Both the position numbers and the translations under genes were made by a program. Shown here one piece after another: positions 8,288 through 27,909 of a stretch of 64,000 nucleotides of DNA (positions are counted from its first letter, which is position 1; each line of letters begins with the position of its first letter). The notes under the pieces were generated by a model, which saw nothing but the letters and a program-made list of their open reading frames with translations, was not told where the DNA came from and searched no databases. This stretch comes from Prevotella sp. E9-3 (GTDB lineage Bacteria; Bacteroidota; Bacteroidia; Bacteroidales; Bacteroidaceae), in assembly GCF_022024015.1 (NCBI RefSeq), contig NZ_CP091786.1:310001-374000 (forward strand). The letters are read 5' to 3'.

Positions 8288-9609
8288 ATTGGTTTTGAGA
8301 ATGATTTCGTTGTATGTTCCATTAGCGGGTCTATGGCCGCCGCCACGTTCCTGACAAAAGGCATGCCTTCTGTTGTCATGGCGACGGATTGACCGTTGAG
8401 GCTGATGATGCCGTCAGCCTCGATATGAAGAAGTTTTGTGCGGTAGCGTTCCAGTGTATCCTCATCGAGCGTGACGTGGTAGTTACACATCAGCTGTTCG
8501 ATGAAATCGCGTGTTTTTTGTTCTTCTGCCGTCAGCGTATATCCTTTCTTTACCGGCAGAACGCCGTTGTTGACCATGCTGATATATTCGTCTATGTCTT
8601 TCGTGTTCTGGGCATAGGCAGTTTCCAACTGACTGATGCCTGTTACGCCGAAGGCATATACTTGAGCAGTGGTTCGGCGGGTGCAATAGCCCTGGAAGTT
8701 ACGGTGCAACTGTTTAGTGGTGACGGCCTGGTACAGTTCGTCGTCAGGACGAACAAAGTGGTCCATGCCGATACGCACATAGCCAGCATCGGTCAGCATC
8801 TGCTCGGCAGTGGTGAAGATGCGCTCTTTCTCTTCAGGAGTGGGCAGTCCTGCTTTTTCCAGTATCAACTGCTGCTTCTTCAGCCAGGGCACGTGGGCAT
8901 AGCTGAACAGTACCAGTCGCTCGGGCTGGAGTGCAATGGCCCTTTCTATGTTATAGGCAAATTTCTCAGCCGTTTGTCCTGGCAAACCGTAAAGGAAGTC
9001 AAGATTGATTTTTATGCCACCGTTGCGCAGCAATGCGAAAATATCTTCAATAGGCTCCTGTGTGGGGCGACGGTTCACCGTATGCAGAACCTGCTCGTCG
9101 AAGTCCTGTATGCCGATGCTCATACGAGTGAAGCCGGCATCTACCAGTGCCTGCCAGTCGGCCAACGACAAATAGCCGGGATGGCATTCAATAGCTATCT
9201 CCGGACGCTCTATAGTCTGAAAATTGGAAAGAATATGGTCGTTGAACTCCTTGATGACGGCTGGTCGCATGGCTGTGGGACTACCACCTCCGAAATGAAT
9301 CTGCGACACTTTGCGGTCTTTCTCCAACAGCGGAAAGACCAAGTCAATCTCTTGGTGTACTGCCTTCAGGTAATTGTCAACAACCTCTGTCGAGCGCATG
9401 GCATAGCTGTTGCAAGCACAGTAATGACACAGATGGCGACAGAAAGGCAAGTGAAAATAGAACGATAGATTGCGGTCGTTGGCAGCATTCGACTGTCGAA
9501 TGGCATTCACCAGTTCCTCTTCCCCCATCTCGCGGAAATAATTTGCCGGGGGATAGCTGGTATAACGTGGAACGGGCACGTTGTATTTCTCAATAACTGA
9601 CTGTTTCAA
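8284..9609 (-). CDS. hemN: Oxygen-independent coproporphyrinogen III dehydrogenase
   Basis: Radical SAM enzyme that decarboxylates coproporphyrinogen III to protoporphyrinogen IX without oxygen. The cluster motif is CRHLCHYCAC, i.e. CX3CX2CXC with the extra cysteine of genuine HemN rather than HemW/HutW relatives. GGGSPT follows in place of the usual GGGTPT. The early segment VPRYTSYPPANYF is typical of HemN, and the 441-residue length fits. First gene of the operon, with its own promoter upstream at 9655-9685. Confidence 0.95.
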   Translation of the reverse strand: MKQSVIEKYNVPVPRYTSYPPANYFREMGEEELVNAIRQSNAANDRNLSFYFHLPFCRHLCHYCACNSYAMRSTEVVDNYLKAVHQEIDLVFPLLEKDRKVSQIHFGGGSPTAMRPAVIKEFNDHILSNFQTIERPEIAIECHPGYLSLADWQALVDAGFTRMSIGIQDFDEQVLHTVNRRPTQEPIEDIFALLRNGGIKINLDFLYGLPGQTAEKFAYNIERAIALQPERLVLFSYAHVPWLKKQQLILEKAGLPTPEEKERIFTTAEQMLTDAGYVRIGMDHFVRPDDELYQAVTTKQLHRNFQGYCTRRTTAQVYAFGVTGISQLETAYAQNTKDIDEYISMVNNGVLPVKKGYTLTAEEQKTRDFIEQLMCNYHVTLDEDTLERYRTKLLHIEADGIISLNGQSVAMTTEGMPFVRNVAAAIDPLMEHTTKSFSKPI

Positions 9610-11978: not shown

Positions 11979-12024
11979 TTATCAAGGCATTGAGCGGTTG
12001 TGTGCAAAAAAAACGTTCAATGTC

Positions 12025-12054
12025 TTGTTGTTTAATAAAAATTGCTTACCTTTG
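12025..12054 (+). promoter_or_regulatory. Promoter of the thiamine uptake operon
   Basis: TTG at 12025-12027, a 19-nt spacer and TACCTTTG at 12047-12054. Transcription would begin near 12060, about 20 nt before the riboswitch. Confidence 0.75.
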
Positions 12055-12078
12055 CACGCGATTTGCCAAAGTGGCTTA

Positions 12079-12160
12079 TTAAGGGGTGCTGGTTCCGTTG
12101 AACTGGCTGAGATCATACCCTTCTAACCTGTTCGGGTAATGCCGGCGTAGGGATGGATAG
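12079..12160 (+). ncRNA. TPP riboswitch (THI element)
   Basis: The sequence carries the conserved TPP-aptamer blocks in order: GGGGTGCT, CTGAGATCATACCC, AACCTGTTCGGGTAATGCC and GCGTAGGGA. It lies between the promoter and the receptor start at 12232, and so should reduce expression when TPP is abundant. About 40 nt later CCCCCTTTTT (12194-12203) could pair with AAGGGG at the start of the aptamer and may belong to the expression platform; that pairing is a guess. Confidence 0.96.
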
Positions 12161-12231
12161 TAAGGTCAAATCACAATTCTTTCGAATTAGTAGCCCCCTT
12201 TTTATATAGTTTAATTCTTTTATTAAAAGGG

Positions 12232-14541
12232 ATGAAAAGATTGTTTTTTCTCTGTGCGCTGTTGAGCGCAATGACAGCCGAGGCTGTTGAAAATCATGAT
12301 GCGAAGCTGACCGCAGCTCAGCCCGTTGACTCATTGCAATTGGTAGAACTTCAGGATGTTCAGGTACGTTCCACACGTGCTTCAAAGAAGACGCCAATGG
12401 CATTCTCCAATATGAACCGTGATCAGATTAAGCAGGTGAACTACGGTCAGGATATACCTTTTATCCTGTCAATGACCCCCAGCGTCATCACTACCAGCGA
12501 TGCCGGCAACGGTATTGGCTATACCACCATGCGTGTGCGTGGTACCGCTCCCGAGCGTATGAACATCACCGCCAATGGCATTCCTATGAACGATGCCGAA
12601 AGCAATCAGGTGTTCTGGGTGAACATGGGCGATTTCGCCTCCAGCTTGCAGTCCTTGCAGCTTCAGCGTGGTGTAGGCTCTTCAACCAATGGTGCCGGTG
12701 CCTTCGGTGCCACCCTGAACATGCAGACTGAGAGTATCGGTCAGCCCTATGCTGCCGTCGATTTCAGCGGTGGCTCCTATTATACGAATAAGGAGACTGT
12801 GCGATTCTCAACCGGACTGCCCGATGAGGGGCACTGGGGCTTGCAGGGCCGCTTGTCGCACATTGGCTCTAAAGGCTATATAGACCGTGCCGAGACCCAG
12901 CTCTACAGCTATTTCCTGCAGTATGGCTATTTCGATGATGACCGTGCCGTGAAATTCATTACCTGGAACGGCGAAGAGCAGACCTATCATGCCTGGGACT
13001 TTGCCTCTCACTATGCACAGGATACTTATGGCCGCACCTACAATCCCTGTGGCTATATGTATGATGATGCCAACGGCAATCCCGTTTACTATAAGGACCA
13101 GACCGATAATTACCACCAGCAGAACTACCAGATTCTTTGGAACGAGCGCCTCTCGAATGTGCTCTCGCTCAATGCTGCCCTCCACTATACCCGTGGCGAC
13201 GGCTATTATGAGCAGTTCAAAGGCAACAAGAAACTGGGCGACTACATGCCCCTTACCGCTGCCGAAAAAGGAATGAAGAGCGACCTGGTGCGCCAGAAGA
13301 AGATGGCCAATGATTTCTATGGTGCTATTGCCTCACTGGTCTATGACAACCGTAAGGGCCTCGACCTCACAGTGGGTGGCGGCTGGAACAAGTACGACGG
13401 CGACCACTTTGGCCGTGTCACCTATCTCTCCAATGCACCGGCCAGCTATTACGACGGTTTCGAATACTACCGTAACAACGCTCAGAAAACCGATGCCAAC
13501 GTATATGGAAAGGTGAACTACGAGTTCCTTCGTGGCTTGAGCGCTTATGTTGACCTTCAGTACCGTCATGTAGGTCTGAAGATGCAGGAGCCAGGCGACT
13601 GGTACGGACTGAATGTTGATGGCAAGTATATCATCGACGAGAAATATGATTTCCTCAATCCAAAGTTCGGACTGAACTATCAGCTGTCGCCCGCTCATCG
13701 TCTCTATGCTTCTTATGCCATTGCTCATAAGGAGCCCGTGCGCAACAATTTCGAAAACAACTACAATGCCGGTTTGGAGAATCCCCGTGCCGAACGTCTC
13801 AACGACCTCGAAGTGGGCTATCAGCTCACCCTTCCCCGTTTCAGCGCTGGCGTGAATGCCTATTGGATGGACTATAAAGACCAGTTTGTACTCACCGGTG
13901 AGATTGATGCCATCGGCGAAGCCATCACCCGTAACCTGCCCAAGAGCTATCGCATGGGCGTAGAGGTGGAAGCCGCCTGGCAGCCTGTCGATTGGTTCCG
14001 TTGGGATGCCAATGCCACCTTCTCAAAGAACCGTGTGAAAGAGATTGCCGTTCTGCTCGACGACTATACCACCACGGTGACCCTCGACAGTGAAAAGCCA
14101 TTGGCCTTCTCGCCCGATCTGATCTTCAACAATATCTTCACCCTCTCTTACAACGGATTCCGTGCTGCCCTGCAGAGTCAGTATGTGAGCGATCAGTACC
14201 TCACCAACACTGGCTTCAAGGAAATGCTCTGTCAGGATGCCGACGGCAATGACTGCTATGAGACCCTTTTGCTGAAGAAACATTTCACCACCAACATCGA
14301 CCTCAGCTATACCTTTGCCCTGAAGGCACTGGCCCTGAAAGAGGCAACGGTGGGTGTGACTCTCTACAACGTGACCAGCGCCAAGTTTGACAACAACGGC
14401 TGGGCTGCTCCACAGTATCAGCAGGCTGCCGACGGAAGCGTGAAGGCTGTCAACACCTGGGGCGTGCGTGACGATGAGGCCGTAGGCTTTGCACCTTCAG
14501 CACCCTTCCACTTCCTTGCACATCTCTCTCTTAATTTTTAA
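12232..14541 (+). CDS. TonB-dependent outer membrane receptor of the thiamine regulon
   Basis: A 769-residue outer membrane receptor with a signal peptide (about residues 1-19), a plug domain (QDIPFILSMTPSV, MRVRGTAPERMNITANGIPMND, GVGSSTNGAGAFGATLNM) and a long beta-barrel ending in aromatic FHFLAHLSLNF. The TPP riboswitch in its leader and the following pnuT and thiamine pyrophosphokinase genes mark it as the thiamine receptor described for Bacteroidetes by comparative genomics (omr1). No starch-type SusD partner is present. The ligand could be thiamine, TPP or a precursor; the sequence cannot separate these. Confidence 0.92.
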   Translation: MKRLFFLCALLSAMTAEAVENHDAKLTAAQPVDSLQLVELQDVQVRSTRASKKTPMAFSNMNRDQIKQVNYGQDIPFILSMTPSVITTSDAGNGIGYTTMRVRGTAPERMNITANGIPMNDAESNQVFWVNMGDFASSLQSLQLQRGVGSSTNGAGAFGATLNMQTESIGQPYAAVDFSGGSYYTNKETVRFSTGLPDEGHWGLQGRLSHIGSKGYIDRAETQLYSYFLQYGYFDDDRAVKFITWNGEEQTYHAWDFASHYAQDTYGRTYNPCGYMYDDANGNPVYYKDQTDNYHQQNYQILWNERLSNVLSLNAALHYTRGDGYYEQFKGNKKLGDYMPLTAAEKGMKSDLVRQKKMANDFYGAIASLVYDNRKGLDLTVGGGWNKYDGDHFGRVTYLSNAPASYYDGFEYYRNNAQKTDANVYGKVNYEFLRGLSAYVDLQYRHVGLKMQEPGDWYGLNVDGKYIIDEKYDFLNPKFGLNYQLSPAHRLYASYAIAHKEPVRNNFENNYNAGLENPRAERLNDLEVGYQLTLPRFSAGVNAYWMDYKDQFVLTGEIDAIGEAITRNLPKSYRMGVEVEAAWQPVDWFRWDANATFSKNRVKEIAVLLDDYTTTVTLDSEKPLAFSPDLIFNNIFTLSYNGFRAALQSQYVSDQYLTNTGFKEMLCQDADGNDCYETLLLKKHFTTNIDLSYTFALKALALKEATVGVTLYNVTSAKFDNNGWAAPQYQQAADGSVKAVNTWGVRDDEAVGFAPSAPFHFLAHLSLNF

Positions 14542-14594
14542 ATAGTGTGGGAGCGCCCTGATGATAGGGTGCCGCCCGCACCTCAGACTGCTTA

Positions 14595-15185
14595 ATGAAT
14601 ATAGATTGGCTTGATTTGACGACCACGATACTCGGCCTGATTTACATCTGGCTCGAGTATCGTGCTCACATTGCACTCTGGGTGGTAGGCATAGTGATGC
14701 CGGCACTCGATGTTATTCTCTACTGGCAACACGGTCTCTATGGCGATGCCGGTATGGCCGTTTACTACACTCTGGCAGCCGTCTATGGACTGCTGTTCTG
14801 GAAATTCAAGAAAACAAAAAAACTGAAGCGTGAGCTTCCTATTATCTATATGCCGAAGAAATACTACCTGCGAGTGGCTGTATTCTTCTTCGTGGCTTGG
14901 GCGGCCACCTATTATATATTAATAAAGTGGACCAACTCAACGGTGCCCGTGCTCGATTCTTTTACCAATGCCCTCTCGTTTGTGGGACTATGGGCTTTGG
15001 CGCGTAAGTTCATCGAGCAGTGGTTCTTCTGGATGATTGTCGATGCCGTGTGCACCGTACTCTATATCCAGAAGGGCATTCCCTTCAAAGCAGGCCTCTA
15101 CGGCCTTTATGTAGTCATAGCCGTGATGGGCTATTTAAAATGGAAAAGTATAATGATTAATCAGCCAAGAAATGAAATTTCCTGA
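14595..15185 (+). CDS. pnuT: PnuC-family thiamine transporter (PnuT)
   Basis: A 196-residue inner membrane protein of the PnuC family, with several hydrophobic helices and the family pattern IYIWLEYRAHIALWVVGIV near the N-terminus and FIEQWFFWMIVDAV late in the protein. PnuC proteins move nicotinamide riboside; the PnuT subgroup, found under THI elements in Bacteroidetes, moves thiamine, which is then trapped by phosphorylation. Here it stands between the receptor and the kinase. It overlaps the kinase gene by 14 bp. Confidence 0.92.
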   Translation: MNIDWLDLTTTILGLIYIWLEYRAHIALWVVGIVMPALDVILYWQHGLYGDAGMAVYYTLAAVYGLLFWKFKKTKKLKRELPIIYMPKKYYLRVAVFFFVAWAATYYILIKWTNSTVPVLDSFTNALSFVGLWALARKFIEQWFFWMIVDAVCTVLYIQKGIPFKAGLYGLYVVIAVMGYLKWKSIMINQPRNEIS

Positions 15186-16062: not shown

Positions 16063-17784
16063 ATGAAGCCAACCATTGTCCTACTCCTTACCATGCTTCT
16101 GCTATTCTCTTGCAGAAATAGCAGCGACGACCAGCGAATGGAGCAGATTATCAACCAAGCCGACTCATTAAACAAGAACGGCCACCCCATGACCAGCGAC
16201 TCACTGCTTGTCATGGCTTGTGAGTATTACGACCGTTTTGGCACCCCCAACGAACAACTGCGTGCCCACTATCTTTTAGGCTGCGTCTATCGTGACCGAG
16301 GCGAGGCTCCTCATGCAATAGACTGCTTCAAGGAGGCCATCAACAAGGCCGACACCACAGCAAGCGACTGCGATTTCCATATCATGGGCTGCGTGTATGG
16401 CCAAATGGCATACGTCTATCATCAACAGTTATTACTTTCCTATGAAATTGAAGCATACAAGTGTGCAGCACATTGTTTCATTCTTGCTAACGACCCAATA
16501 CAATATGCTATCAGAAGCAAAGTTTTGATGGGTGATGCATACATCTTGCTGAACAAAAATGATAGTGCTGAAATGATAATCACAGATGCTGTCCGCCAGT
16601 TAGATGAGTCTGACGACCCGCAAGAAGCACTTATCGCATCAATGTCGTTAATGCATCTCTATTCAGATATCCCCGACAAAACAAATAAACTTAATGACTT
16701 AATTCATCAGTTTGACACTAAGAGCTCTCTATTTGACATTCATCATGACCTTCCTTCCGGACGGCGTCAGTTTTTCTATTATAAAGGAAAGTTTTTTGAA
16801 GCCGTACATGAATTGGACTCAGCAGAGTATTATTATCGGAAAGTATATTATTCAGGCATGCCTGAGGTAGCTAAAGTACCTATGTATCGAGGCCTCTTAA
16901 GTATTTCCCAAAAGCGTCATAATGCAGATTCCATTGCCAAATATGCTAAACTATATTGTCTTGCCAACGATTCTACATTAAACATTAAAGATAGAGAGAC
17001 AACGGCTCGTATGGCAGCTTCTTACAACTATAGAGAGTATCAACGTCAGGCGCTCATCAATGAAGAAAAGGCCAGTAGGGCACAGCTACAGCTATTTGTG
17101 ATTGTTATCGCTATTATTGTAGTAGCTGTAGTTGCTATATCATTATTACGCCGACAGAAAAGAAAAATTGAAAACCTCAGATATGAATATGCCAGTGTAT
17201 CGGACGAGTATAGCCGGAACGTGCATAGACTTAAAAATCTGGAAGTAGCTCACAAAGCTGTCATTAAACAGCTACAAGGGGAATTTAATGCAGCTACGTC
17301 TGAACTCAATAAGCAAATTGAGGTTGAAAAAAGAGAACTAACAGAAGAAAATAATTTACTGAAGATAAGAATAAAGGAGTTAGGACATCTTCTGTCCCTG
17401 TCTTCAATTGTTAAGAATCGCCAGCAACTGTCAGAGACTCCAATAGTCAAAAGACTTACTGAACTTTGCGATGCACCATTACAATCATTAACTGAAAACG
17501 AGAAGAGCACCCTTCTGGCAACGATGAGCGACTATTATCCATCTCTCATTCATGATCTCCAGCAACCCGCAAATTCTGTTACATCCTTAGGCGTTTTTGT
17601 TTGCATTCTCGTGGCTTTGAACTATCGTTCTGGCGAAATTTCAAATATGCTTGGGGTGTCACCTCAACAAGTTGCAAATACCAAACAAGACTTAAATAAG
17701 TCACTTTTTCAAGTATCCACAGCGAGATCTCTCTATAAAAACCTAATACAGCGCTATGGCATAAATACTGGCATAAATGATTGA
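16063..17784 (+). CDS. Membrane-spanning TPR protein with C-terminal HTH, putative regulator
   Basis: A 573-residue protein beginning with a lipoprotein-type signal (LLLFSC, Cys17). Residues about 25-330 look like tetratricopeptide repeats (AHYLLGCVYRDRGEAPHAIDCFKEAI). A strong membrane helix covers about 343-364, followed by a coiled coil (about 370-450) and a C-terminal region with a LuxR-like helix-turn-helix (RSGEISNMLGVSPQQVANTKQDL, about 522-544). The layout suggests periplasmic sensing with a cytoplasmic DNA-binding end, as in other Bacteroidetes TPR-HTH proteins. It lies just before the peptide/TlpA/barrel unit, which it may control; that is inference from position. Base composition becomes visibly AT-richer after the first 370 bases. 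Confidence 0.75.
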   Translation: MKPTIVLLLTMLLLFSCRNSSDDQRMEQIINQADSLNKNGHPMTSDSLLVMACEYYDRFGTPNEQLRAHYLLGCVYRDRGEAPHAIDCFKEAINKADTTASDCDFHIMGCVYGQMAYVYHQQLLLSYEIEAYKCAAHCFILANDPIQYAIRSKVLMGDAYILLNKNDSAEMIITDAVRQLDESDDPQEALIASMSLMHLYSDIPDKTNKLNDLIHQFDTKSSLFDIHHDLPSGRRQFFYYKGKFFEAVHELDSAEYYYRKVYYSGMPEVAKVPMYRGLLSISQKRHNADSIAKYAKLYCLANDSTLNIKDRETTARMAASYNYREYQRQALINEEKASRAQLQLFVIVIAIIVVAVVAISLLRRQKRKIENLRYEYASVSDEYSRNVHRLKNLEVAHKAVIKQLQGEFNAATSELNKQIEVEKRELTEENNLLKIRIKELGHLLSLSSIVKNRQQLSETPIVKRLTELCDAPLQSLTENEKSTLLATMSDYYPSLIHDLQQPANSVTSLGVFVCILVALNYRSGEISNMLGVSPQQVANTKQDLNKSLFQVSTARSLYKNLIQRYGINTGIND

Positions 17785-17863
17785 TTTACAAAACGGTAAC
17801 GTGATTATTAACATTGTTTTGTACTCAAAAGTGAAATCCAGTGAATTATTATTCACCTAATAA

Positions 17864-17895
17864 TTTGGAGCGTATCTGTCATCGTCATATATTTG
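17864..17895 (+). promoter_or_regulatory. Promoter of the peptide/TlpA/barrel unit
   Basis: TTTG (17864-17867), a 20-nt spacer and TATATTTG (17888-17895), 53 nt before the peptide start. Its presence shows the peptide unit can be transcribed apart from the regulator gene. Confidence 0.7.
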
Positions 17896-17948
17896 CAGTC
17901 GATAATTAATCATAAAACAGTAATCATATCATTAGTGTCCCGTTAAAA

Positions 17949-18173
17949 TTGAAAAGACTCTCTGAGGTGGGAAATGTTCTGACAAGCAATGAACTCAAGC
18001 ACATTTATGGAGGTACGACAGGAAGCTCTGAAGGATCAAAAGAATGTCGCTGCGAATGGAATGATGAAAAGAAAAAATGCGAGCCAAACAAGTCTTGTCC
18101 GTCTGGAGTTGAATGTTGGCATACAATGGAAGGAAGTCACAATATTTGCGCTACAAAATTTCCTTATAAATAA
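17949..18173 (+). CDS. Small Cys-rich peptide with double-glycine leader
   Basis: A 74-residue peptide starting at TTG; no ATG fits. The N-terminus begins with KRLSEVGNVLTSNELKHIYGG, a double-glycine leader like those of Bacteroidales ribosomal peptide precursors, in which leucine and glutamate positions precede GG. Cleavage after Gly22 would release a 52-residue core with six cysteines (33, 35, 44, 50, 56, 67), an even number compatible with three disulfides. A TlpA-like thioredoxin protein follows after 11 nt and an outer membrane barrel after that. Could be a secreted bacteriocin, a signal or a redox-folded surface peptide. No peptidase-ABC exporter or radical SAM enzyme is beside it. The gene is real on frame and promoter grounds; its function is unknown. 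Confidence 0.72.
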   Translation: MKRLSEVGNVLTSNELKHIYGGTTGSSEGSKECRCEWNDEKKKCEPNKSCPSGVECWHTMEGSHNICATKFPYK

Positions 18174-18184
18174 AGAATTATCAT

Positions 18185-19315
18185 ATGAGAAAGTTTCTAA
18201 TACTTTTTTGTTTTATCTGTAATTATTCCATTGCCCAGGATGTTCACATCTTAGGCAATGGAATGAATCTGAAGAATGGAGAAAAAATAGTCTTGAAGCA
18301 ATGGACTAAGGATGGTTGGAGTATAAAGGATAGTACAATCGTATTAAACTCGACGTTTCAATTTACCATTGCCGAACAATCATCGTTTGCTCTTATATCA
18401 AGTGAGAAATATGAGAGTGAAGTGTTCTTGCACGGAGACACAATCCGTCTATCCCTGGATTCTATACCTACAGTGAATGGAGACGAATTAGTACTTAATT
18501 ACGCTACTATTTATCGTAATCTGCTCAAAAAAGAGCGCATAAAGAATATCGTTATCGATCGGTGCCATGATGTACTGGACTGTGAAGATCTTGAAAATCA
18601 GGTTTTCTGGGATACACAGCAAATGATTTGCTCTGAAATAAAAGATGAAATAAAGAACGACCTTGGACTTTCTTTGTTAAAGAGACACATAGAATGGATA
18701 GAAGCGGAAGACTTGATTGCTATATTGGAACATGCAGATTCTACGCGAAGTAGTTTTCCTCCCATTCCGCTTGACTATGATTTAGATTTTCATCTTTCGC
18801 AAACAGTAGCATCTATCAGAACAGATTCGGCGATATGTAATACTATAAGAAAGAAAATCATCCCATATCAAGAATTCCTTCAGTTCTTCGAGCAGCGACC
18901 ATGGAAGCAATTGGAAGGAGCTGAACCTGTAGATCTACAGTTAGTAGATATGAACGGTGGCAAGCTAACCCTTTTGGACGTTTTAAGAAGAAGTGGAAAA
19001 TCAACCTTTCTTTTAGAATTTTGGGCCTCATGGTGTGGGCCATGCCACCTGCAATTCGATATAATAGAAAAAGTACGCCAACAACATCCAGAAATCGAAG
19101 TTATAGGCATTTCACTTGACGACTATCAGCAAGTATGGATTGATGATATCAAGGAAAACGACCTGAAATGGTCGCAGTATCGTCTTCAGAATAAGGCTGA
19201 TGTAAATAGTTCGTACAAAGTCTTTGGAATCCCCCATATTGTAATGATAGAAAACAATACCATTACATTTTCCGGACATGGCGAAATTCATTCAGAGATT
19301 TTGAAGAAAAAATGA
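18185..19315 (+). CDS. TlpA-like thioredoxin-fold protein, exported
   Basis: A 376-residue protein with a signal peptide (MRKFLILFCFICNYSIAQ). The first part is a beta-rich domain resembling the DUF4369-type N-terminus common in Bacteroidetes TlpA proteins. The C-terminal thioredoxin domain (about residues 240-376) has FLLEFWASWCGPC with the CXXC active site and the cis-proline region FGIPHIVMI. Such proteins act as periplasmic disulfide reductases or isomerases. Between the six-cysteine peptide (11 nt before) and the barrel (9 nt after), a role in folding or reducing the peptide is a reasonable inference. Confidence 0.85.
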   Translation: MRKFLILFCFICNYSIAQDVHILGNGMNLKNGEKIVLKQWTKDGWSIKDSTIVLNSTFQFTIAEQSSFALISSEKYESEVFLHGDTIRLSLDSIPTVNGDELVLNYATIYRNLLKKERIKNIVIDRCHDVLDCEDLENQVFWDTQQMICSEIKDEIKNDLGLSLLKRHIEWIEAEDLIAILEHADSTRSSFPPIPLDYDLDFHLSQTVASIRTDSAICNTIRKKIIPYQEFLQFFEQRPWKQLEGAEPVDLQLVDMNGGKLTLLDVLRRSGKSTFLLEFWASWCGPCHLQFDIIEKVRQQHPEIEVIGISLDDYQQVWIDDIKENDLKWSQYRLQNKADVNSSYKVFGIPHIVMIENNTITFSGHGEIHSEILKKK

Positions 19316-19324
19316 AAACCGTTT

Positions 19325-22081
19325 ATGCGTAATCTTGTGTTGGTCATAGTCCTCGTCTGTAACATTCTAAGTGTCTTTGCTCAAGGAAAAGAACATCCTG
19401 TACAGGGCTACGTGATAGACAACTTCACAGGTGAGAATATTCCTGATGTTACAGTAACATTGCTGACGGCCGACAGTACGGTCGTCAGCAATACAACCAT
19501 ATATAATGTTCCTGAAATGCCCGAATTCACAGGACGCTACAGCCTGAACATACCAGCAGTTGGAAAGTATATTTTGAAGGCAAGCTGTATAGGATACAAA
19601 ACGACCTATATGAACATTGCTTTGCGCTCCAATCGTGAACATGCTATTCTTCCTAAACCCATCCGCATGGTGAAAGTTGTGACTGATTTGCCGGAAGTCG
19701 TTGTCAGACCAACAAAAATTAAAATGATATATAGCGGTGATACTATCATTTATAATGCTGATGCCTTCAAGGTTGCGGAAGGATCGATGTTAGATGCACT
19801 GATTGGACAATTGCCAGGAACACGTATTACAAAAGATGGACAAATAACTGTCAATGGCCAGTTTGTGGAAAGTTTACTGCTAAATGGACGGGATTTCTTT
19901 AATGGCAATCCGCGAATAGCCTTAGACAATTTGCCAGCTTATACCATAGGCAAGATAAAGGTGTATCACCAACGCGACGAGAAATCGCTCAACAGCAACA
20001 ATGGAAAATCTCCTATGGTAATGGACGTACATCTGAAAAAAGAATATGCTACAGGATATCTGGGCAATGCAGAGGTTGGCACTGGAACGGAAAAGCGATA
20101 TCAAGTGCGGGGCATTGGCATGAAGTTCAGCGATCTTTCACGCACGGTAGCTTTCACCAACATGAATAACCTTAATGATAACCGCCGTGCTGGATATGGC
20201 GGCGAATGGAATCCGTCAGATATGCCTGCAGGACAACAGACAGAGAAATCGGCAGGTATTAACTACATGTATTATCTTGACCGTGAATCGTCATTCCTTA
20301 CAGAGAATACTTTCTCCCATAGCAATCACGACCTGCAGACTGAAAAATACATACAGACATTTCTGCCACAGCAGGAATCCGAAAACCGGAACAAGGATTT
20401 CGCCCTCAGCAAATACAACAATTGGAAAACCCACAACCAACTACGGTTGCGGAAAGAGTACTATTGGAGTGACAGTTATATAGATGCCTCCTATCAAGAA
20501 AAGCATGTCAATAATAATAACCAGACAGAGACTTGGTTTGACTCGTCTTTATTGAATCATCTGTATAATCTGCATAAAGCAGACAGCAAGACATTCTCAT
20601 TGAACGGTAGCACCGGACATTATTTCCGTATCATTGCTGATATGTTGCGTTTAAATGCCACCATCGACTATCAACGCTCCCAGGACACGGCTTTCTCACT
20701 TTATGACTTGAGATATACCGAAGGAAATGCCCGCAGTGATTTTCGCAACACGTATCTTTCTACTCCCAATCATCGTTTCAATATGAGCCTGAAAGCCGGT
20801 TATGACTATTGCTGGGGAAAACAATCGATAACTCCGTCGTATCAATATGATTTTCAGTACGAAAAGACGGATAACAAGCAATACCGATTAGACAGGCTGC
20901 CTGTAGCGGATAGTACTGCATGGGACTTTCTTCCTTCTAACCTTGACGATCTGCAATCAGTAATTGATGATCACAATAGCTATCTTTACCGTGAGAAAAC
21001 GGATAATCATACATTCGAACTGGGATATACAAACGTTATTGGCGGCTCAGGCCATCTGGTAATAAGCATCCCATTCAGATATGCTACGAAGGAGTTAAAT
21101 GCATATCGTGTAAATGACTATCATGTAAACAGGAGAGCATTATTCACAGAACCAATGTTATCATTAAATCTGTATCCTCAAAACTTTTCTGCATCATTAT
21201 GTCTCAAATATAGGCAGGAGATGCCGCGATTGACCGACATGTTCGATTATAAGGACGACAGCAACCCTTTAAGAATCAGATTGGGCAATCCGGACTTGCG
21301 CAATATTGGGCATTTCGATGCTGATGTCAGCGCTAAATATAATTGGGCAGACACACGGTATCTTTATGCAAAAGCGAATTATCACATCATCCGAAATGCT
21401 ATTGCATATGGTGTTGAGCTCGACCCAAAAACAGGCGTTACCACAACTACTCCTGAGAATATAAATGGAAACTGGCATGTCAGTGGCGAGATGGGCTATT
21501 TCACAGAAATGGGTAAACGAAAACAGTTTACATTAGAGGAAGTCTTTAGACCTTCATTCAGGCATTGTGCCGATTTTACGGGCATCAACGGGGTTACAGG
21601 AAAAACGGAAAGAAAAGTAAGAATCTTGGCACTTAACAATGAATTAAAGCTGACTTATCATCCCAGCAAATCCCTTTCTATAGGAGCGAATACGAGAATT
21701 GACTGGAACCTGATTAACGACGACCAGACTACTCCTCAAAATATTAGTATTTTCGACTATAATTGTGGGATGAAAGCCACACTTGATCTGCCTTGGAAGA
21801 TGCAACTCACCACCGACGTTAATGAATACCTGCACCGCGGCTATCAAACTTCGAGTATGAACACGAGTGAACTGATCTGGAATGCGAGTCTGACTAAAAG
21901 TGTGGCTAAAGGCAAACTCCTCTTTGCTTTCAAGGCTTTCGATATTCTCAAACAGCAGAGCATCCGTTCCTACGTGTTAAACGCAAAAGGACGCACGGAA
22001 ACCTGGACCAATACAATTCCAAGATATTTCATGCTCAGTGCCTCATGGCGGTTCAACAAAAATCCGAAGAAAACAAGATGA
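19325..22081 (+). CDS. Outer membrane beta-barrel protein, TonB-receptor-like
   Basis: A 918-residue protein with a signal peptide (about 1-19), a carboxypeptidase-regulatory-like beta-sandwich (HPVQGYVIDNFTGENIPDVTV to ILKASCIGYKTTYMNI), a plug-like region with SGDTIIYNADAFKVAEGSMLDALIGQLPG and ITVNGQFVESLLLNGRDFF, and a long barrel. This is the Bacteroidetes outer membrane beta-barrel family related to TonB-dependent receptors; no SusD partner is present. Third gene of the peptide unit. It may export, bind or import the peptide, or be its immunity or surface partner; none of these is shown by sequence. Confidence 0.82.
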   Translation: MRNLVLVIVLVCNILSVFAQGKEHPVQGYVIDNFTGENIPDVTVTLLTADSTVVSNTTIYNVPEMPEFTGRYSLNIPAVGKYILKASCIGYKTTYMNIALRSNREHAILPKPIRMVKVVTDLPEVVVRPTKIKMIYSGDTIIYNADAFKVAEGSMLDALIGQLPGTRITKDGQITVNGQFVESLLLNGRDFFNGNPRIALDNLPAYTIGKIKVYHQRDEKSLNSNNGKSPMVMDVHLKKEYATGYLGNAEVGTGTEKRYQVRGIGMKFSDLSRTVAFTNMNNLNDNRRAGYGGEWNPSDMPAGQQTEKSAGINYMYYLDRESSFLTENTFSHSNHDLQTEKYIQTFLPQQESENRNKDFALSKYNNWKTHNQLRLRKEYYWSDSYIDASYQEKHVNNNNQTETWFDSSLLNHLYNLHKADSKTFSLNGSTGHYFRIIADMLRLNATIDYQRSQDTAFSLYDLRYTEGNARSDFRNTYLSTPNHRFNMSLKAGYDYCWGKQSITPSYQYDFQYEKTDNKQYRLDRLPVADSTAWDFLPSNLDDLQSVIDDHNSYLYREKTDNHTFELGYTNVIGGSGHLVISIPFRYATKELNAYRVNDYHVNRRALFTEPMLSLNLYPQNFSASLCLKYRQEMPRLTDMFDYKDDSNPLRIRLGNPDLRNIGHFDADVSAKYNWADTRYLYAKANYHIIRNAIAYGVELDPKTGVTTTTPENINGNWHVSGEMGYFTEMGKRKQFTLEEVFRPSFRHCADFTGINGVTGKTERKVRILALNNELKLTYHPSKSLSIGANTRIDWNLINDDQTTPQNISIFDYNCGMKATLDLPWKMQLTTDVNEYLHRGYQTSSMNTSELIWNASLTKSVAKGKLLFAFKAFDILKQQSIRSYVLNAKGRTETWTNTIPRYFMLSASWRFNKNPKKTR

Positions 22082-22118
22082 ATGCAGTCTGAAAGCAAAT
22101 TATAACGTCCATCCTGTT

Positions 22119-23057
22119 CTATTTTCTAATGAGGTATTTGTAAGTGGTGTTCAGCGTGAAATACATGATGAGGCCGATGAAAACGCCGGCTATGGCATCG
22201 ATGGCATAGTGGGCCTGAATATAGAAAGTGGCGAAGAACATCAGCACGCCGAAGGGTACGAGCGACCAGAAGAACAGACGGTTCTTGGTGGCCCACGCCT
22301 GACAGAGCAATACTACCATGATGCCTACATGACTGCTGGGGAAAGCGGCTGTGGGACGCTCGCCGGCCTCATGGGCAACAACCAATAGTTTATAAAAGAT
22401 ACCATCGGTGTAGCCCGGACTTGGCATGGCCTCGCTATGGGTTTCGAAATAGTGACCAATGTTAGGAAATATGCCTTGCGATATCTGGTCAACTCCGGCT
22501 GCCAGATAGTAGTATTGCGGTCCGGCAACGGGTAGGAAGATGAATATCACATAGAACAGGAAGAATGATGTGAGCATGACAAACGATGCTCGGGTGAAAT
22601 CTTTGTAGCGCCAGAAGAAATAAAACAGCGGCACTATGATCATCAGCGGATAATAGCTCACATAGCCCAGCGTGAGCAGTTCGCTCACCACGGGACTGCT
22701 GAACTTCTGACTGAATAGCAGGGCGGGCTGAAAACCGAAGAACTGCTGTTCCCAAGTGGCAAACACATGGTCCAGATTGGGCAGCATGCGGTTGAACTCG
22801 TAGGTGTCGGGGTACCATGAGCCTAACAAGGCTACCTGACCCAGTACACGGAAAAGGATGGTGAGCCGGCAGGGCAGCATGCGGTAAACGCCCCACAGAC
22901 CCAAGGTGATGGCAATGGACTGCACGCGCATCCATATCATGGACTCGGGATTCTGCAGTCGGGTATAGGTGAACAGCATCAGCACACCCGTGAGCAAGGC
23001 ATACCCGATCATGACCCATTCAAAGGGGTACAGTCCTTTTTTTGTAGTTAAAGCCAT
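22119..23057 (-). CDS. PAP2-superfamily membrane phosphatase/transferase
   Basis: A polytopic membrane protein of about 312 residues. The PAP2 active-site motifs are present: RPTAAFPSSHVG (His near 243) and QAHYAIDAIAG (His near 283, Asp near 287). The segment LPNLDHVFATWEQQFFGFQPAL resembles inositol-phosphorylceramide-synthase-like PAP2 proteins, so it could act in phospholipid or sphingolipid head-group chemistry rather than as a simple phosphatase; this is uncertain. ATG 23057 is chosen over ATG 23075 because it shortens the overlap with the preceding epimerase gene from 28 to 10 bp. It faces the barrel gene tail to tail. Confidence 0.82.
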   Translation of the reverse strand: MALTTKKGLYPFEWVMIGYALLTGVLMLFTYTRLQNPESMIWMRVQSIAITLGLWGVYRMLPCRLTILFRVLGQVALLGSWYPDTYEFNRMLPNLDHVFATWEQQFFGFQPALLFSQKFSSPVVSELLTLGYVSYYPLMIIVPLFYFFWRYKDFTRASFVMLTSFFLFYVIFIFLPVAGPQYYYLAAGVDQISQGIFPNIGHYFETHSEAMPSPGYTDGIFYKLLVVAHEAGERPTAAFPSSHVGIMVVLLCQAWATKNRLFFWSLVPFGVLMFFATFYIQAHYAIDAIAGVFIGLIMYFTLNTTYKYLIRK

Positions 23058-24061
23058 CCGTTTTCTTTGTACCATTTAATAGTGAGGGGAACGCCCCTTT
23101 TAAGATTATATTCGGGATTGTAGCCCAGTTCTTGGCGGGCCGGTTCAATGTCGCAACGCCAGTTGCGCTGTTTCAGGATGTGATATTTGTCGTTGTTCAG
23201 GGCTGAGATCTTACCCGTTATGTGCCCAATCTTGTCGCCCACCCATGTCACGATGCGCAGTACCCAGATAGGTGCCGTGATGCGAATCCACCAGGGATTG
23301 CCCAACTCCTTACGAATCAGATTGCTGAATGTGGCCGACTGATAGACCTCGCCGTCGCTGAGGAAATAGCAGCGCCCGGTCTTTCCGTGGTCGCAGGCCA
23401 GGAATACCGCCTGTACCACATCCTGTACATAGACAAAGGTGATGTCCTGTTGGCGGTAGCCCACGGCAAAGTCGCTGTGCTGCTTGATACTCTTGGCCAT
23501 CAGGAAATAGTCGCGCTCGCGAGGGCCATAGACTCCCGTGGGGCGTAGTATGACGTAAGGAAACACGTTATCGTTCATTCTCAGTTCCAACGACTCGTTC
23601 ATCCAGCGCTCGGTTTCCAACTTACTCTTTCCGTAGTCGGTGTTGGGGTGTGGAGTGTCGGTTTCGCGTATCTCTTCATAGGGCTGCTTTTCACGGATGG
23701 CACCGAAAATGCTTAGCGAACTGAGATATACAAAACGTTTCAAAGGCATGTTCAGGGCTATCAGTGCACGCACCAGGTTTTTGGTTCCTTCGGTATTGAT
23801 ACGGTAGAAGTCGGCGGAGTTAAGGCATTTCGTTACGCCGGCAGCATGAACCACATAGTCGAACGTGTGGCCTTGCAACTGTTGTTCCAACTGCTGCTGA
23901 CTGTCAAGGTTCAGTTCAATGAAATGGATGCGCTCGTCTTGCAGAAACTGTTTTGAACTGCTTCCACGCACGGCAGCCCATGTGTCCATACCCTGTCGAA
24001 GAGCTTCTTCAACAATGAACGAACCAATAAAACCGCTAGCTCCGGTGATTAATATTCTCAT
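23048..24061 (-). CDS. NAD(P)-dependent epimerase/dehydratase (extended SDR)
   Basis: A 337-residue extended short-chain dehydrogenase. It begins MRILITGASGFIGSFIVEEAL (TGXXGXXG nucleotide site) and has the catalytic YXXXK in DYGKSKLETERW plus the downstream RPTGVYGPRERDYFLM. Related proteins work on nucleotide sugars or on sterol or terpenoid alcohols; the substrate cannot be told here. ATG 24061 is used because the in-frame extension upstream contains the promoter element and does not look like coding sequence. Overlap with the PAP2 gene implies one transcript. Confidence 0.85.
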   Translation of the reverse strand: MRILITGASGFIGSFIVEEALRQGMDTWAAVRGSSSKQFLQDERIHFIELNLDSQQQLEQQLQGHTFDYVVHAAGVTKCLNSADFYRINTEGTKNLVRALIALNMPLKRFVYLSSLSIFGAIREKQPYEEIRETDTPHPNTDYGKSKLETERWMNESLELRMNDNVFPYVILRPTGVYGPRERDYFLMAKSIKQHSDFAVGYRQQDITFVYVQDVVQAVFLACDHGKTGRCYFLSDGEVYQSATFSNLIRKELGNPWWIRITAPIWVLRIVTWVGDKIGHITGKISALNNDKYHILKQRNWRCDIEPARQELGYNPEYNLKRGVPLTIKWYKENGWL

Positions 24062-24090
24062 TGTCCAATAATGATAATAAAATTGCACTG

Positions 24091-24098
24091 CAAAGGTA
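24091..24098 (-). promoter_or_regulatory. -7 promoter element for the epimerase-PAP2 operon
   Basis: Minus-strand TACCTTTG, about 30 nt before the ATG. No clear TTTG at -33; that position is occupied by the triple palindrome element, which could influence this promoter. Confidence 0.55.
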
Positions 24099-24106
24099 CA
24101 AATAGT

Positions 24107-24176
24107 CAAATAAATTTTGGCCATTATTTTTCAAATTTTGGCCAAAATTCAATGAATAATGGCCAAAATTTATTTG
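24107..24176. repeat. Triple palindrome element, variant with TTGGCCAA core
   Basis: Three palindrome units, AATTTTGGCCATTATT, AATTTTGGCCAAAATT and AATAATGGCCAAAATT, start at 24113, 24134 and 24155, again exactly 21 bp apart. Unit 3 is the reverse complement of unit 1, so the whole element is an inverted repeat with perfect 22-bp outer arms (24107-24128 and 24155-24176). It lies between the divergent promoters of the epimerase operon and rnr, and its right edge covers the rnr -33 TTTG. Confidence 0.88.
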
Positions 24177-24202
24177 AGTGATATGATTTTTTGCTATCTT
24201 TG
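24173..24202 (+). promoter_or_regulatory. rnr promoter
   Basis: TTTG (24173-24176), an 18-nt spacer and TATCTTTG (24195-24202), 33 nt before the ATG. The -33 element overlaps the end of the triple palindrome element. Confidence 0.65.
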
Positions 24203-24235
24203 CAGCAATAACAACTCTTTAAATGAATAAATACT

Positions 24236-26464
24236 ATGGGACGAAAAGGTGGAAAACGATTGAATAAAGCAATGGTTGCTGATGCCCTTCAGGCATTTTT
24301 TCAGGCTCACCCCAACGAGACATTCGCACTGAAACAGATCTTCAAAGCCCTCAGACTGGACACCCATCCAGCCAAGATGCTGGCCGTCGATGTGCTGGAA
24401 GAGATGACCTGGGACGACTACCTTATACAACCTGAGAGCAATGCCTACCGTCTGAACCTGAAGACACAGGTGCAGGAGGGCACTTTCGTGCGCAAAGCCA
24501 ACGGCAAAAACTCGTTCCTGCCCGATGATGGTGGCAAGCCTATCTTTGTCAGCGAGCGCAACTCGATGTTTGCCATGGGTGGCGACCGTGTGCGTGTGGC
24601 CATGATGGCCCGTAGGCAGAACCATATCAGGGAGGCCATGGTCACGGAGATTTTGGAGCGCAAGCACGACCAGGCCGTGGGCATCCTGCAGGTAGAGAAA
24701 GATTTCGCCTTCCTTGTTACCGAAGGCAATATCTTTAATCACGATATACTCATTCCGAAAAAGAAACTGAAGGGCGGAAAGACCGGTCAGAAGGCGGTGG
24801 TGAAAATCACCCAGTGGCCCTCGAAAGACTCGAAGAACCTCATGGGCGAAGTGATCGATGTGTTGGGCAATCAGGGTGATAATAATGTTGAGATGCATGC
24901 CATCCTGGCCCAGTACGGACTGCCCTACAAGTATCCGAAGCGTGTGGAGGAGGCCGCCAACAAGCTTTCTGCCGAGATAACTCCCGAGGAGATAGCCCGT
25001 CGTGAGGATTTCCGTGATGTGCTCACCTTCACCATCGACCCGAAGGATGCCAAGGATTTCGACGATGCATTGTCGATAAGGGTAGCCCCGGCCTCCCATA
25101 CTGCCTCCGAGGGGGCTCGCTATTACGAAGTTGGCGTTCACATTGCCGATGTGTCTCATTATGTGACAGAGGGAAGCATCATTGACCGTGAGGCTGAGCA
25201 GCGCGCCACGAGCGTCTATCTCGTTGACCGCACCATCCCCATGTTGCCCGAGCGGCTTTGCAACTTCATCTGCTCGTTGCGCCCCGATGAAGAGAAACTC
25301 GCCTATAGCGTCATCTTCATCATGGACGAAGAAGCCAATATCAAAGACTGGCACTTGGCTCATACCGTGATCAAGAGCGACAGAAGATTCTGCTATGAAG
25401 AGGTGCAGGAGATATTGACGGCCCCCGAAGTGGCTGCTAAAGATAGTCCAACTAAAGAAGCCCCCTCGGGGGCAGTAGAGGGGGCTCTTAGAGTTCTCGA
25501 CCACATGGCGAAAGCCTTGCGCGAACGCCGTTTCAAGGGAGGTGCCGTGAAGTTTGACCGCGAGGAACTGCATTTCGATGTCGATGAGAGCGGAAAGCCC
25601 ATACGCTGCTATTTCAAGAAATCGAACGATGCCACCCAGCTGGTGGAGGAATTCATGCTGCTGGCCAACCGTACCGTGGCAGAATTTATCGGAAAAGCTC
25701 AGAAAACTCCGAAATCTCAGAATAATCAGAAGTCTTCGCCAAAGGCCAAGACCTTCGTGTATCGTATTCACGACCAGCCCGACCCACAGAAACTGGAGTC
25801 GCTGCGGGCCGCTGTTGCACCATTCGGCTATAAGGTGAAAACCAGTGGCACGAAAGGCGCTATCTCGAAAAACCTGAACAAACTGATGGACGATGTGCAG
25901 GGACAGCGTGAGCAGAAACTGGTGGAGACTCTCGCCCTGCGTGCTATGATGAAGGCAAAATATTCTACCCATAATATCGGTCACTACGGACTGGCCTTCG
26001 ACTATTACACCCACTTCACCTCACCCATCCGCCGCTATCCCGACACGATGGTGCACCGACTGCTCACCCGCTATCAGGAAGGCGGTCGATCGGTGAATCA
26101 GGAACACTACGAGGAACTGTGCGAACACTCCAGTCAGATGGAACAGACGGCTGCCAATGCCGAGCGCGACTCTATAAAATATAAAATGGTGGAGTTCATG
26201 GCCGACAAGGTGGGAGAGGAGTTTGATGCTCATATCTCAGGCATCCAGTCGTACGGCATCTACTGTGAAATAGACGAGAACCACTGCGAGGGACTGGTGG
26301 GCATGCACGACCTTGACGGCGACTACTATGACTTTGACGAGCGCAACTATTGCCTGGTGGGTCGTCGCCATCATCAGAAATATCAGTTGGGCGATGCCGT
26401 GCGCATCAAAGTGGCTCGCGCCAATATCGAGAAGCGCCAGCTCGACTTCGTACTGGCTGACTGA
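24236..26464 (+). CDS. rnr: Ribonuclease R
   Basis: A 3'-5' processive exoribonuclease of 742 residues. In order: an N-terminal winged-helix-like region (about 10-75), cold-shock-type beta barrels, the RNB catalytic domain with the metal-binding aspartates of TIDPKDAKDFDDALS and HIADVSHYV, the HYGLAFDYYTHFTSPIRRYPD block and a C-terminal S1 domain. The usual long lysine-rich tail is missing. Three extra segments interrupt the RNB domain: near residues 283-294 and 402-418, each made by a G/C-rich palindromic insert, and a KTPKSQNNQKSSPKAK linker near 490. The frame is intact, so the protein should be made. Confidence 0.94.
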   Translation: MGRKGGKRLNKAMVADALQAFFQAHPNETFALKQIFKALRLDTHPAKMLAVDVLEEMTWDDYLIQPESNAYRLNLKTQVQEGTFVRKANGKNSFLPDDGGKPIFVSERNSMFAMGGDRVRVAMMARRQNHIREAMVTEILERKHDQAVGILQVEKDFAFLVTEGNIFNHDILIPKKKLKGGKTGQKAVVKITQWPSKDSKNLMGEVIDVLGNQGDNNVEMHAILAQYGLPYKYPKRVEEAANKLSAEITPEEIARREDFRDVLTFTIDPKDAKDFDDALSIRVAPASHTASEGARYYEVGVHIADVSHYVTEGSIIDREAEQRATSVYLVDRTIPMLPERLCNFICSLRPDEEKLAYSVIFIMDEEANIKDWHLAHTVIKSDRRFCYEEVQEILTAPEVAAKDSPTKEAPSGAVEGALRVLDHMAKALRERRFKGGAVKFDREELHFDVDESGKPIRCYFKKSNDATQLVEEFMLLANRTVAEFIGKAQKTPKSQNNQKSSPKAKTFVYRIHDQPDPQKLESLRAAVAPFGYKVKTSGTKGAISKNLNKLMDDVQGQREQKLVETLALRAMMKAKYSTHNIGHYGLAFDYYTHFTSPIRRYPDTMVHRLLTRYQEGGRSVNQEHYEELCEHSSQMEQTAANAERDSIKYKMVEFMADKVGEEFDAHISGIQSYGIYCEIDENHCEGLVGMHDLDGDYYDFDERNYCLVGRRHHQKYQLGDAVRIKVARANIEKRQLDFVLAD
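25084..25117 (-). repeat. Palindromic insert 1 inside rnr
   Basis: A hairpin-forming segment bounded by AGCCCC and GGGGCT. Read on the minus strand it begins AGCCCCCTCGGAGGCAGTA, nearly the same as AGCCCCCTCGGGGGCAGTA in insert 2 on the plus strand. It adds residues such as PASHTASEGA where other RNase R proteins have a short turn. Confidence 0.6.
25459..25486 (+). repeat. Palindromic insert 2 inside rnr
   Basis: AGCCCCCTC and GAGGGGGCT arms flank GGGGGCAGTA-type sequence. It is related to insert 1 but in the opposite orientation and stays in frame, adding the EAPSGAVEGAL stretch to the RNB domain. Confidence 0.6.
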
Positions 26465-26539
26465 GAGCTGCTGACGGACAGCAACAGTATTCATCAGTTA
26501 AATATTAATTGAATATAGACAATTGTCGGAAAAAAGTAG

Positions 26540-26547
26540 TAACTTTG
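26540..26547 (+). promoter_or_regulatory. miaB -7 promoter element
   Basis: TAACTTTG 42 nt before the miaB ATG. No -33 TTTG at the usual distance, so only the -7 half is supported. Confidence 0.5.
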
Positions 26548-26589
26548 CACGCTCATTTTAAAAATAGGTAATTAGGAAAAAATTGTTGG

Positions 26590-27909
26590 ATGAAGAAACT
26601 CTATATTGAAACCTACGGGTGCCAGATGAATGTGGCCGACTCGGAAGTGGTGGCATCAGTGATGCAGATGGCAGGCTATGAGACTTGTGAAAAGGCAGAA
26701 GAGGCCGATGCTGTGTTTTTGAATACCTGTTCGGTGCGCGATAATGCCGAACAGAAAATCTATCATCGTCTGGAAGCACTCAACGCCATGAGAAAGTCTA
26801 AGAAGCAGTTGATTGTCGGAGTACTTGGCTGTATGGCTGAGCGCGTGAAGGACGACCTGTTGGAAAATCATGGTGTTGACCTTGTGGCAGGCCCAGATGC
26901 CTACCTGTCGTTGCCCGATCTGACCGCTCAGGCCGAAATGGGGCATAAAGCCATCAATATCGAGCTTTCTACCAGCGAGACCTATAAGGATGTGGTGCCC
27001 CAGCGTATTGGCTTGGGCCATAAGATAGGTGGTTTCGTGAGCATCATGCGTGGCTGTAACAACTTCTGCCACTATTGCATTGTTCCTTATACCCGTGGTC
27101 GTGAGCGCAGTCGTGATGTGGAAAGCATCCTGCGTGAAGTGCGCGACTTGCGCGACCGTGGTTTCAAGGAGGTGACACTGCTGGGACAGAATGTAAATTC
27201 ATATAAAGCCTCCTCCGAGGAAGGGGATATCCTATTCCATGAATTGTTGAGGAAAGTGGCCCGTGAGGCTCCAGAGATGCGCATCCGTTTCACCACCTCG
27301 CATCCGAAGGATATGAGCGATGATACCCTGCGTGTGATTGCCGAAGAGCCTAATGTGTGCAAACATATCCACCTGCCTGTGCAGAGCGGTAGCGACAGGA
27401 TTTTGAAACTGATGAACCGTAAATATACCCGTGAGTGGTATATGGATCGTGTGGCTGCTATTCGTAGGATAATCCCCGACTGCGGTCTTTCTACCGATAT
27501 CTTCGTGGGCTATCATGACGAGACGGAAGAGGACCATCAGTTGTCACTCTCGCTGATGCGTGAGGTGGGCTACGATTCGGCCTTCATGTTCAAATACTCT
27601 GAGCGTCCGGGAACCTATGCTTCGAAACATCTGCCTGATAATGTGGCTGAGGAAGAAAAGATTCGCCGACTGAACGAGCTTATTGCCCTGCAGACAGAAA
27701 TCTCTGCCCAGCAGAACAAAAAGGATGAGGGCAAGGAGTTTGACGTACTGGTGGAGGGTTTCTCAAAGCGCAGTCGCAGTCAGCTTTGCGGTCGCACTGA
27801 ACAGAACAAGATGGTGGTGTTCGACAAGGGCAACCATCATATTGGAGAGACCGTGCGCGTGCGCATTACGGGGAGCACGAGCGCGACGCTGTTTGGTGAG
27901 GAGGCTTGA
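26590..27909 (+). CDS. miaB: tRNA-2-methylthio-N6-dimethylallyladenosine synthase
   Basis: Radical SAM methylthiotransferase that adds a methylthio group at tRNA A37. The 439-residue protein has the N-terminal cluster domain (TYGCQMNVADSE, LNTCSVRDNAEQK, LGCMAERVKDDLL: three cysteines), the radical SAM motif CNNFCHYCIVPYTRGRERSR and a C-terminal TRAM domain (LVEGFSKRSRSQLCGRTEQNKMVVF). GRERSR supports MiaB rather than MtaB or RimO. A short G/C-rich palindrome near 27207-27224 encodes KASSEEGD within a variable loop. The stop runs directly into a GATGGG repeat tract. Confidence 0.96.
   Translation: MKKLYIETYGCQMNVADSEVVASVMQMAGYETCEKAEEADAVFLNTCSVRDNAEQKIYHRLEALNAMRKSKKQLIVGVLGCMAERVKDDLLENHGVDLVAGPDAYLSLPDLTAQAEMGHKAINIELSTSETYKDVVPQRIGLGHKIGGFVSIMRGCNNFCHYCIVPYTRGRERSRDVESILREVRDLRDRGFKEVTLLGQNVNSYKASSEEGDILFHELLRKVAREAPEMRIRFTTSHPKDMSDDTLRVIAEEPNVCKHIHLPVQSGSDRILKLMNRKYTREWYMDRVAAIRRIIPDCGLSTDIFVGYHDETEEDHQLSLSLMREVGYDSAFMFKYSERPGTYASKHLPDNVAEEEKIRRLNELIALQTEISAQQNKKDEGKEFDVLVEGFSKRSRSQLCGRTEQNKMVVFDKGNHHIGETVRVRITGSTSATLFGEEA

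Follow-up and report, generated by a model that had tools for sequence, protein, structure and literature searches.

What role could a short peptide, rich in cysteines and with a double-glycine (GG) leader, have when its gene lies just ahead of those for a TlpA-like thiol oxidoreductase and an outer membrane barrel, and by which route would it leave the cell? The question is raised by a locus of Prevotella sp. E9-3, which lies in the 64,000-nucleotide stretch of DNA analysed here (the window) within a 3.73 Mb single-contig genome. A sequence-only reading had proposed that peptide, TlpA and barrel form a dedicated system. Their frames and the gaps between them (11 nt from peptide to TlpA and 9 nt from TlpA to barrel) are exactly as that reading gave them and the trio is present; however, a fourth part, an upstream gene here named TPRreg, had been missed. 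We give about an even chance to the interpretation that the locus is a reduced form of the bacteroidetocin/TIGR04149-leader kind, serving a secreted, disulfide-bonded GG peptide.

The locus and its surroundings

All four genes read in the + direction (Table 1), and the next two genes downstream, from 22119, are oppositely oriented. Inspection by eye upstream of the peptide finds a candidate promoter, TTTG (17864-17867) followed after 20 nt by TATATTTG (17888-17895), which fits the Bacteroides -33/-7 consensus. A scan of 17700-22200 for E. coli-type promoters gave 11 sites against 14.3 in shuffled sequence (sd 4.0), which is no excess.

Table 1. Features of the locus, in window coordinates
Feature	Position	Strand	Basis
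TPRreg (name used here), 573 aa	16063..17784	+	weak TPR and weak BT3442-family matches, all below cut-offs
Predicted Bacteroidetes-type promoter, TTTG-N20-TATATTTG	17864..17895	+	by eye, fit to consensus
GG-leader peptide, 74 aa from TTG	17949..18173	+	frame and TIGR04149 leader match
TlpA/ResA-like thiol oxidoreductase, 376 aa	18185..19315	+	PF13905, PF14289
TonB-dependent-receptor-like outer membrane barrel, 918 aa	19325..22081	+	PF14905, fold comparison

The locus genes have a GC content of 0.375-0.421, against about 0.50 in the flanking 3-kb blocks (12001-15000 and 24001-27000), and in this they resemble acquired DNA. Such a composition would also suit a different history, in which a once-complete GG-peptide locus has been stripped of exporter, oxidase and the original start of its peptide, with the TlpA and barrel genes retained for other reasons; the peptide would then no longer be made or exported. 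We regard this as the main rival reading, though less likely than the one we favour. The four frames are all open and the promoter consensus stands at a fitting distance, both of which argue against decay; the other evidence on it is given below. Elsewhere in the window, a segment at 39001-45000 is similarly low in GC (0.35-0.39 versus about 0.50 across much of the window). A mobile-element end at the start of the peptide (TAGTGTCCCGTTAAA) was considered and rejected: the genome holds only this sequence and one copy with 1 mismatch, beside which no transposase was recognised by eye. A defence system was likewise discarded, as PADLOC gave no match.

The peptide frame

The predicted precursor consists of a 22-residue leader (MKRLSEVGNVLTSNELKHIYGG) and a 52-residue core with six cysteines. 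A GG-leader pattern, drawn up post hoc, fits 1 of the 334 window ORFs of 40-130 aa, 25 of which have six or more cysteines; it fits none of 4417 small ORFs from 80 control TlpA loci, so that no control stretch contains such an ORF. In a six-frame search of the genome with TIGR04149, the peptide frame matches with an E value of 1.2e-4 and 24.2 bits (curated cut-off 25), and the sole other match (E 0.14) has an internal stop. The profile matches from two codons above the TTG; when the peptide is taken from the TTG only, it scores 18.1 bits, and thus falls below the curated 25 bits with or without the upstream codons.

One relative, P0001, was found among 5.8 billion proteins. It is 89% identical and keeps the GG and all six cysteines; its seven differences from the window peptide spare eight key residues, which by estimate would happen by chance with a probability of about 0.4 and is not significant. 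P0001 begins five residues further upstream, with a Met, and its first five residues are without a counterpart here. Because that Met start is absent, translation of the window peptide would need the TTG. The start of the peptide is doubtful, since the Met of P0001 lies upstream and the leader profile also matches above the TTG. These features of the start are what one would expect if the original start had been lost from a remnant locus, and so is the weak codon bias of the frame (-0.036, with the next best frame at -0.063, a marginal preference only), which is lower than that of the neighbouring genes (0.102 and 0.064).

Within a set of 199 genomes the peptide is present in one, its own, and viral contigs gave no confirmed occurrence. 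An AF2 model built from two sequences has a mean pLDDT of 66.5, with a block of four predicted strands at residues 31-70 (pLDDT 83-87); comparison of the model with the PDB gave no usable match, none reaching E <= 0.001.

Taken together, the TIGR04149 match, the conservation in P0001 and the absence of the pattern from all 4417 control ORFs counter a chance ORF as the main reading, and the frame probably represents a genuine gene. An ordinary TlpA-barrel uptake or stress operon preceded by a chance ORF would accord with the peptide-free barrel relatives and the separate TlpA-barrel pair described below. It is nevertheless very improbable, given the distance between the leader match and the next best one genome-wide, the control ORFs, the frame, GG and cysteines retained in P0001, and the recurrence of the order TPRreg, small protein, peptide, TlpA in two genomes of another genus (G415 and G428).

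Partner proteins and known systems

The TlpA-like protein has a DUF4369-like N-terminus and a thioredoxin domain with the motif WASWCGPC (PF13905, 40.7 bits; PF14289, 25.5 bits with a cut-off of 25). The presence of a thioredoxin-like domain with CxxC behind a signal peptide, the latter read by eye, places it among TlpA/ResA-like proteins, and its best solved relative is 2lja, a putative thiol-disulfide oxidoreductase, over residues 252-358. None of 300 other genomes in the family has a match to it at E <= 1e-20; in a protein database, where scoring covered the 7993 candidates with the most shared words, the same threshold returned its own cluster and two proteins matching in the thioredoxin part. 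A species-wide scan, from which 80 of 496 relatives were kept, recovered mostly the thioredoxin part and a few full-length relatives at 23-26% identity (L018, L040, L049 and L072), whose fetched stretches contain no GG-pattern peptide, window-type barrel or TPRreg. A 19-nt inverted repeat with a 2-nt loop and 89% complementarity lies just inside the TlpA gene (18225-18264).

The barrel has a CarboxypepD_reg-like N-terminus and a plug-like region at about residues 120-241, and matches PF14905 with 51.3 bits (cut-off 27). Its AF2 model has a mean pLDDT of 78.8, with residues 120-241 below 50. In a Foldseek search, each of the 50 best rows listed is a TonB-dependent transporter or receptor, with E values down to 5e-12, although the TM-scores are low (query-based 0.27-0.37, target-based 0.36-0.49); a search of PDB sequences with the barrel profile found no match. 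The PF14905 match and the transporter-like predicted fold, with these low TM-scores, point to a TonB-dependent receptor-like protein. Relatives of the barrel are widespread: matches at E <= 1e-60 occur in 213 of 301 genomes, its own included, when two candidates per genome are scored, and the named relatives among 120 listed are Prevotella intermedia, nigrescens, pallens and falsenii (38-40%).

The surroundings were inspected first for 18 of the 23 highest-ranking barrel matches outside the window. A GG peptide lies directly upstream in three of these (L126, L131 and L134, the last called by eye, TIGR04149 giving nothing there at E <= 0.001), and the other 15 have no peptide; in addition, a TlpA-barrel neighbour pair in L137 lacks one. 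Both observations are what an ordinary uptake operon would predict. Among the remaining five matches, G367 (L180) and the second locus of G280 (L192) do have a GG peptide. In a quick tree of 63 barrels, with long branches flagged, the peptide-associated barrels are scattered and do not form one clade, and the barrel of the window falls among rows of unknown gene context.

The closest worked-out system is that of the bacteroidetocins, which is likened to the locus here by description. According to PMC6671954, bacteroidetocin loci have four genes, encoding a five-TM protein, the peptide itself, a thiol oxidoreductase and an ABC transporter with GG-peptidase. Deletion of any one of the first three attenuates activity, so full activity requires the oxidoreductase gene adjoining that of the GG peptide; the authors consider that such oxidoreductases likely form the bonds, and note that Bacteroides lacks general disulfide machinery. 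The window locus shares with these Bacteroidales loci a GG leader on a small peptide with pairable cysteines and an adjacent thiol oxidoreductase, here a thioredoxin domain with CGPC encoded at a distance of 11 nt. It differs in the peptide itself, which has six cysteines and a leader of 22 residues (27 in P0001), where PMC6671954 gives four cysteines, a leader of 15-16 residues and a 42-residue product. It also differs in having a barrel and a TPR regulator, in having no gene for a five-TM protein between its parts, and in the peptidase-ABC transporter, since PF03412 has 0 matches genome-wide.

Other systems share single features with the locus. The leader type is that of the TIGR04149 GG peptides, which in NCBIfam go with the TIGR04148 radical SAM enzyme and TIGR04150; unlike the TIGR04149 radical SAM systems, however, the window peptide stays under the curated cut-off and its core does not start with CxCxC. 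Graspetide loci share the PF14905-type barrel and the TPR protein: PMC8939145 describes PF14905/TonB-linked barrels and TPR proteins associated with Bacteroidetes ATP-grasp loci, and predicts that the receptor-like barrels mediate graspetide export. In contrast to those loci, the four genes scanned here gave no ATP-grasp match.

If the locus is a reduced bacteroidetocin-like one, as we favour, TPRreg would control the promoter ahead of the peptide, and the GG leader, which the sequence of the precursor shows, would be removed during passage through the inner membrane, in a genome where no exporter was found. The TlpA-like protein, judging from its pairing with the peptide and from the bacteroidetocins, could then make or correct up to three disulfides in the core within the periplasm. 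The barrel, on the strength of gene pairing, might carry the peptide across the outer membrane or bind it there, and the released peptide would most likely act on related bacteria. The role of the barrel is the weakest step, since its modelled fold is that of importers and PMC8939145 predicts export for graspetides.

Neither Peptidase_C39 (PF03412) nor VKOR has a match at E <= 1 in the whole genome; consequently, the step of leader removal and export has no known agent. The peptidase-ABC exporter of a relative has 25 matches in the genome, only two of which cover the membrane part (611 and 574 aa), and neither of these has a C39 part. The earlier statement that such an exporter is absent nearby therefore holds in a stronger form, and no radical SAM enzyme was found with a home-made profile in the 19-kb stretch L200, again in agreement with the sequence-only reading. 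A radical-SAM RiPP was rejected because that stretch lacks the markers of the class, a TIGR04148-like maturase among them, which likewise occur at none of the 11 spaced-cysteine loci introduced below.

The absence of C39 and VKOR also fits a remnant. Other genomes speak against that reading: 7 of 25 peptide-bearing genomes (G000, G375, G200, G367, G415, G454 and G474, several of them incomplete drafts) have no C39 above the cut-off. One of these, G415, is complete in one contig, with a best C39 match of E 0.18, and it keeps regulator, peptide and TlpA. Its peptide differs from that of G428 at 27 third positions versus 15 first or second positions (dN/dS 0.08, dS 1.5), which argues for selection on the peptide; because this selection may predate the loss of the exporter, it does not prove an exporter-free route. 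A broader idea, that GG cysteine-rich peptides of Bacteroidales work without the C39 peptidase-ABC and that a periplasmic TPR regulator senses the peptide, would imply a novel route for leader removal and export, because two complete genomes without C39 above the cut-off keep regulator, peptide and TlpA. We consider it unlikely.

Double-glycine peptide loci across the family

Across 301 genomes of the family, TIGR04149 matches occur in 25, with 40 matches in total, all covered by the fetched stretches. These were grouped into 30 loci, of which three were dropped (a 194-aa protein in G399, a frame with a stop in G454 and a 33-aa frame in G231), leaving 27 including the window. With a core rule (CxCx(1-2)C or WCGC) that was set after the peptides had been seen, 15 loci have a CxCxC-class core; spaced cysteines are found in the window and 11 others. 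The partner genes, identified with home-made profiles, differ between the classes. A radical SAM enzyme occurs at 10 of the 15 CxCxC-class loci (at only 44 bits in G289) versus 0 of the 11 spaced-cysteine loci, and a GLPGLI protein shows the same counts. Conversely, a window-type barrel above 800 bits is present at 6/11 spaced-cysteine versus 0/15 CxCxC-class loci, and a fusion of a C39-like domain with VKOR at 6/11 versus 1/15, which points to disulfide chemistry. A TlpA-like protein is found at 3/11 versus 1/15, a difference that is not significant, and a peptidase-ABC exporter at 6/11 versus 6/15, three of the latter being partial. Taken by itself, the presence of TlpA at three of 11 has a P of only 0.004-0.015 if 3-5% per locus is assumed. 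TPRreg, the barrel superfamily and the C39-ABC occur in both classes. One spaced-cysteine locus (G383) has none of radical SAM, GLPGLI, fusion, barrel, TlpA, TPRreg or peptidase-ABC; absences in this census are uncertain, because several stretches are cut by contig ends.

A thioredoxin-like (TlpA-type) protein adjoins the GG peptide in G415, G428 and G201 (L183, L184 and L190), and a window-type barrel does so at six other loci, two in G280 and one each in G237, G442, G377 and G367. (At the second G280 locus a stop interrupts the matched leader frame close to its beginning, and the counted ORF starts further downstream.) The TlpA proteins of other peptide loci score 28-70 bits, against 242-312 for own-genome paralogues with the same profile, and so are not clear orthologues of the window TlpA. 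No other locus of the 27 combines TlpA with a window-type barrel. A dedicated system of exactly peptide, TlpA and barrel is thus not upheld, as no second trio was found and most barrel relatives are without a peptide. The lack of conservation beside TlpA and barrel genes that the sequence-only reading had named as evidence against itself is found for the exact trio, but not for the peptide-TlpA and peptide-barrel pairs, which recur in other genomes.

TPRreg is a TPR-like protein with a membrane stretch, a coiled coil and an HTH-like C-terminus (by eye from the alignment), behind a start that also looks lipobox-like by eye. A profile search covering 17 of the 25 genomes with peptides places the family no more than 8 kb from the peptide at 12 of 22 GG-peptide loci (11 of 21 if the window is set aside), where copy number would predict 0.46. 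Relatedness of the genomes overstates the significance of this, and the profile rows were drawn from the same loci. Among the 80 TlpA control loci, which come mainly from other families, 2 have it. Gram-positive bacteria have TPR pheromone receptors, and the window locus could be conceived as a topologically inverted analogue, with the peptide as signal, TPRreg as periplasmic sensor, TlpA keeping the peptide folded and the barrel importing it. The proximity of TPRreg to so many peptide loci, its apparent lipobox, single membrane stretch and HTH-like end, and the importer-like modelled fold of the barrel are consistent with such signalling. We think it improbable nonetheless: the family rows are only 15-23% identical to the window TPRreg, and the family is found as often beside CxCxC-class peptides (7/15) as beside the spaced-cysteine class (5/11), so that it could be a regulator serving these loci in general. 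Literature matches listed for a TPR regulator include one on a MACPF structure and, judged by title, none on GG peptides of Bacteroidota.

Should the locus be functional as a reduced bacteroidetocin-like system, double-glycine peptides of Bacteroidales would have interchangeable partners (TlpA, C39-like-VKOR fusion, TonB-type barrel and TPR regulator), and some genomes would keep such peptides without a known exporter. The loci found allow tests of which partner makes the disulfides and of whether peptides are moved or received by TonB-type barrels, a role that PMC8939145 already predicts for graspetides.

The C39-like-VKOR fusions near GG peptides are L126:1626-3185, L131:3491-5041, L184:4719-6320, L187:8237-9787, L188:1187-2746, L190:10152-11717 and L195:6286-7854. 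Six of these seven contain a thioredoxin domain, for which the one in L184 has no Pfam match. They have no cysteine aligned with the catalytic one of C39 exporters, so the C39-like domain could bind leaders but probably does not cut them; perhaps the fusions are leader-guided disulfide oxidases. Among the literature matches listed for such fusions with GG peptides, none was relevant by title and start of abstract.

A small protein is encoded near the GG peptide at L183:8169-8702, L184 about 8176-8576 and L126:879-1292. It sits between the TPR regulator and the peptide in L183 and L184, and that of L183 (51.3 bits) and that of L126 match DUF3244. Arrays of peptides were also seen. In G280, on one contig, L198:1352-11073 encodes four different six-cysteine GG peptides among barrels, one of which is split across two frames, followed by a peptidase-ABC exporter; in L174 (G336:C34:9304-18175), six CxCxC-class GG peptides form an array with GLPGLI-like proteins interspersed.
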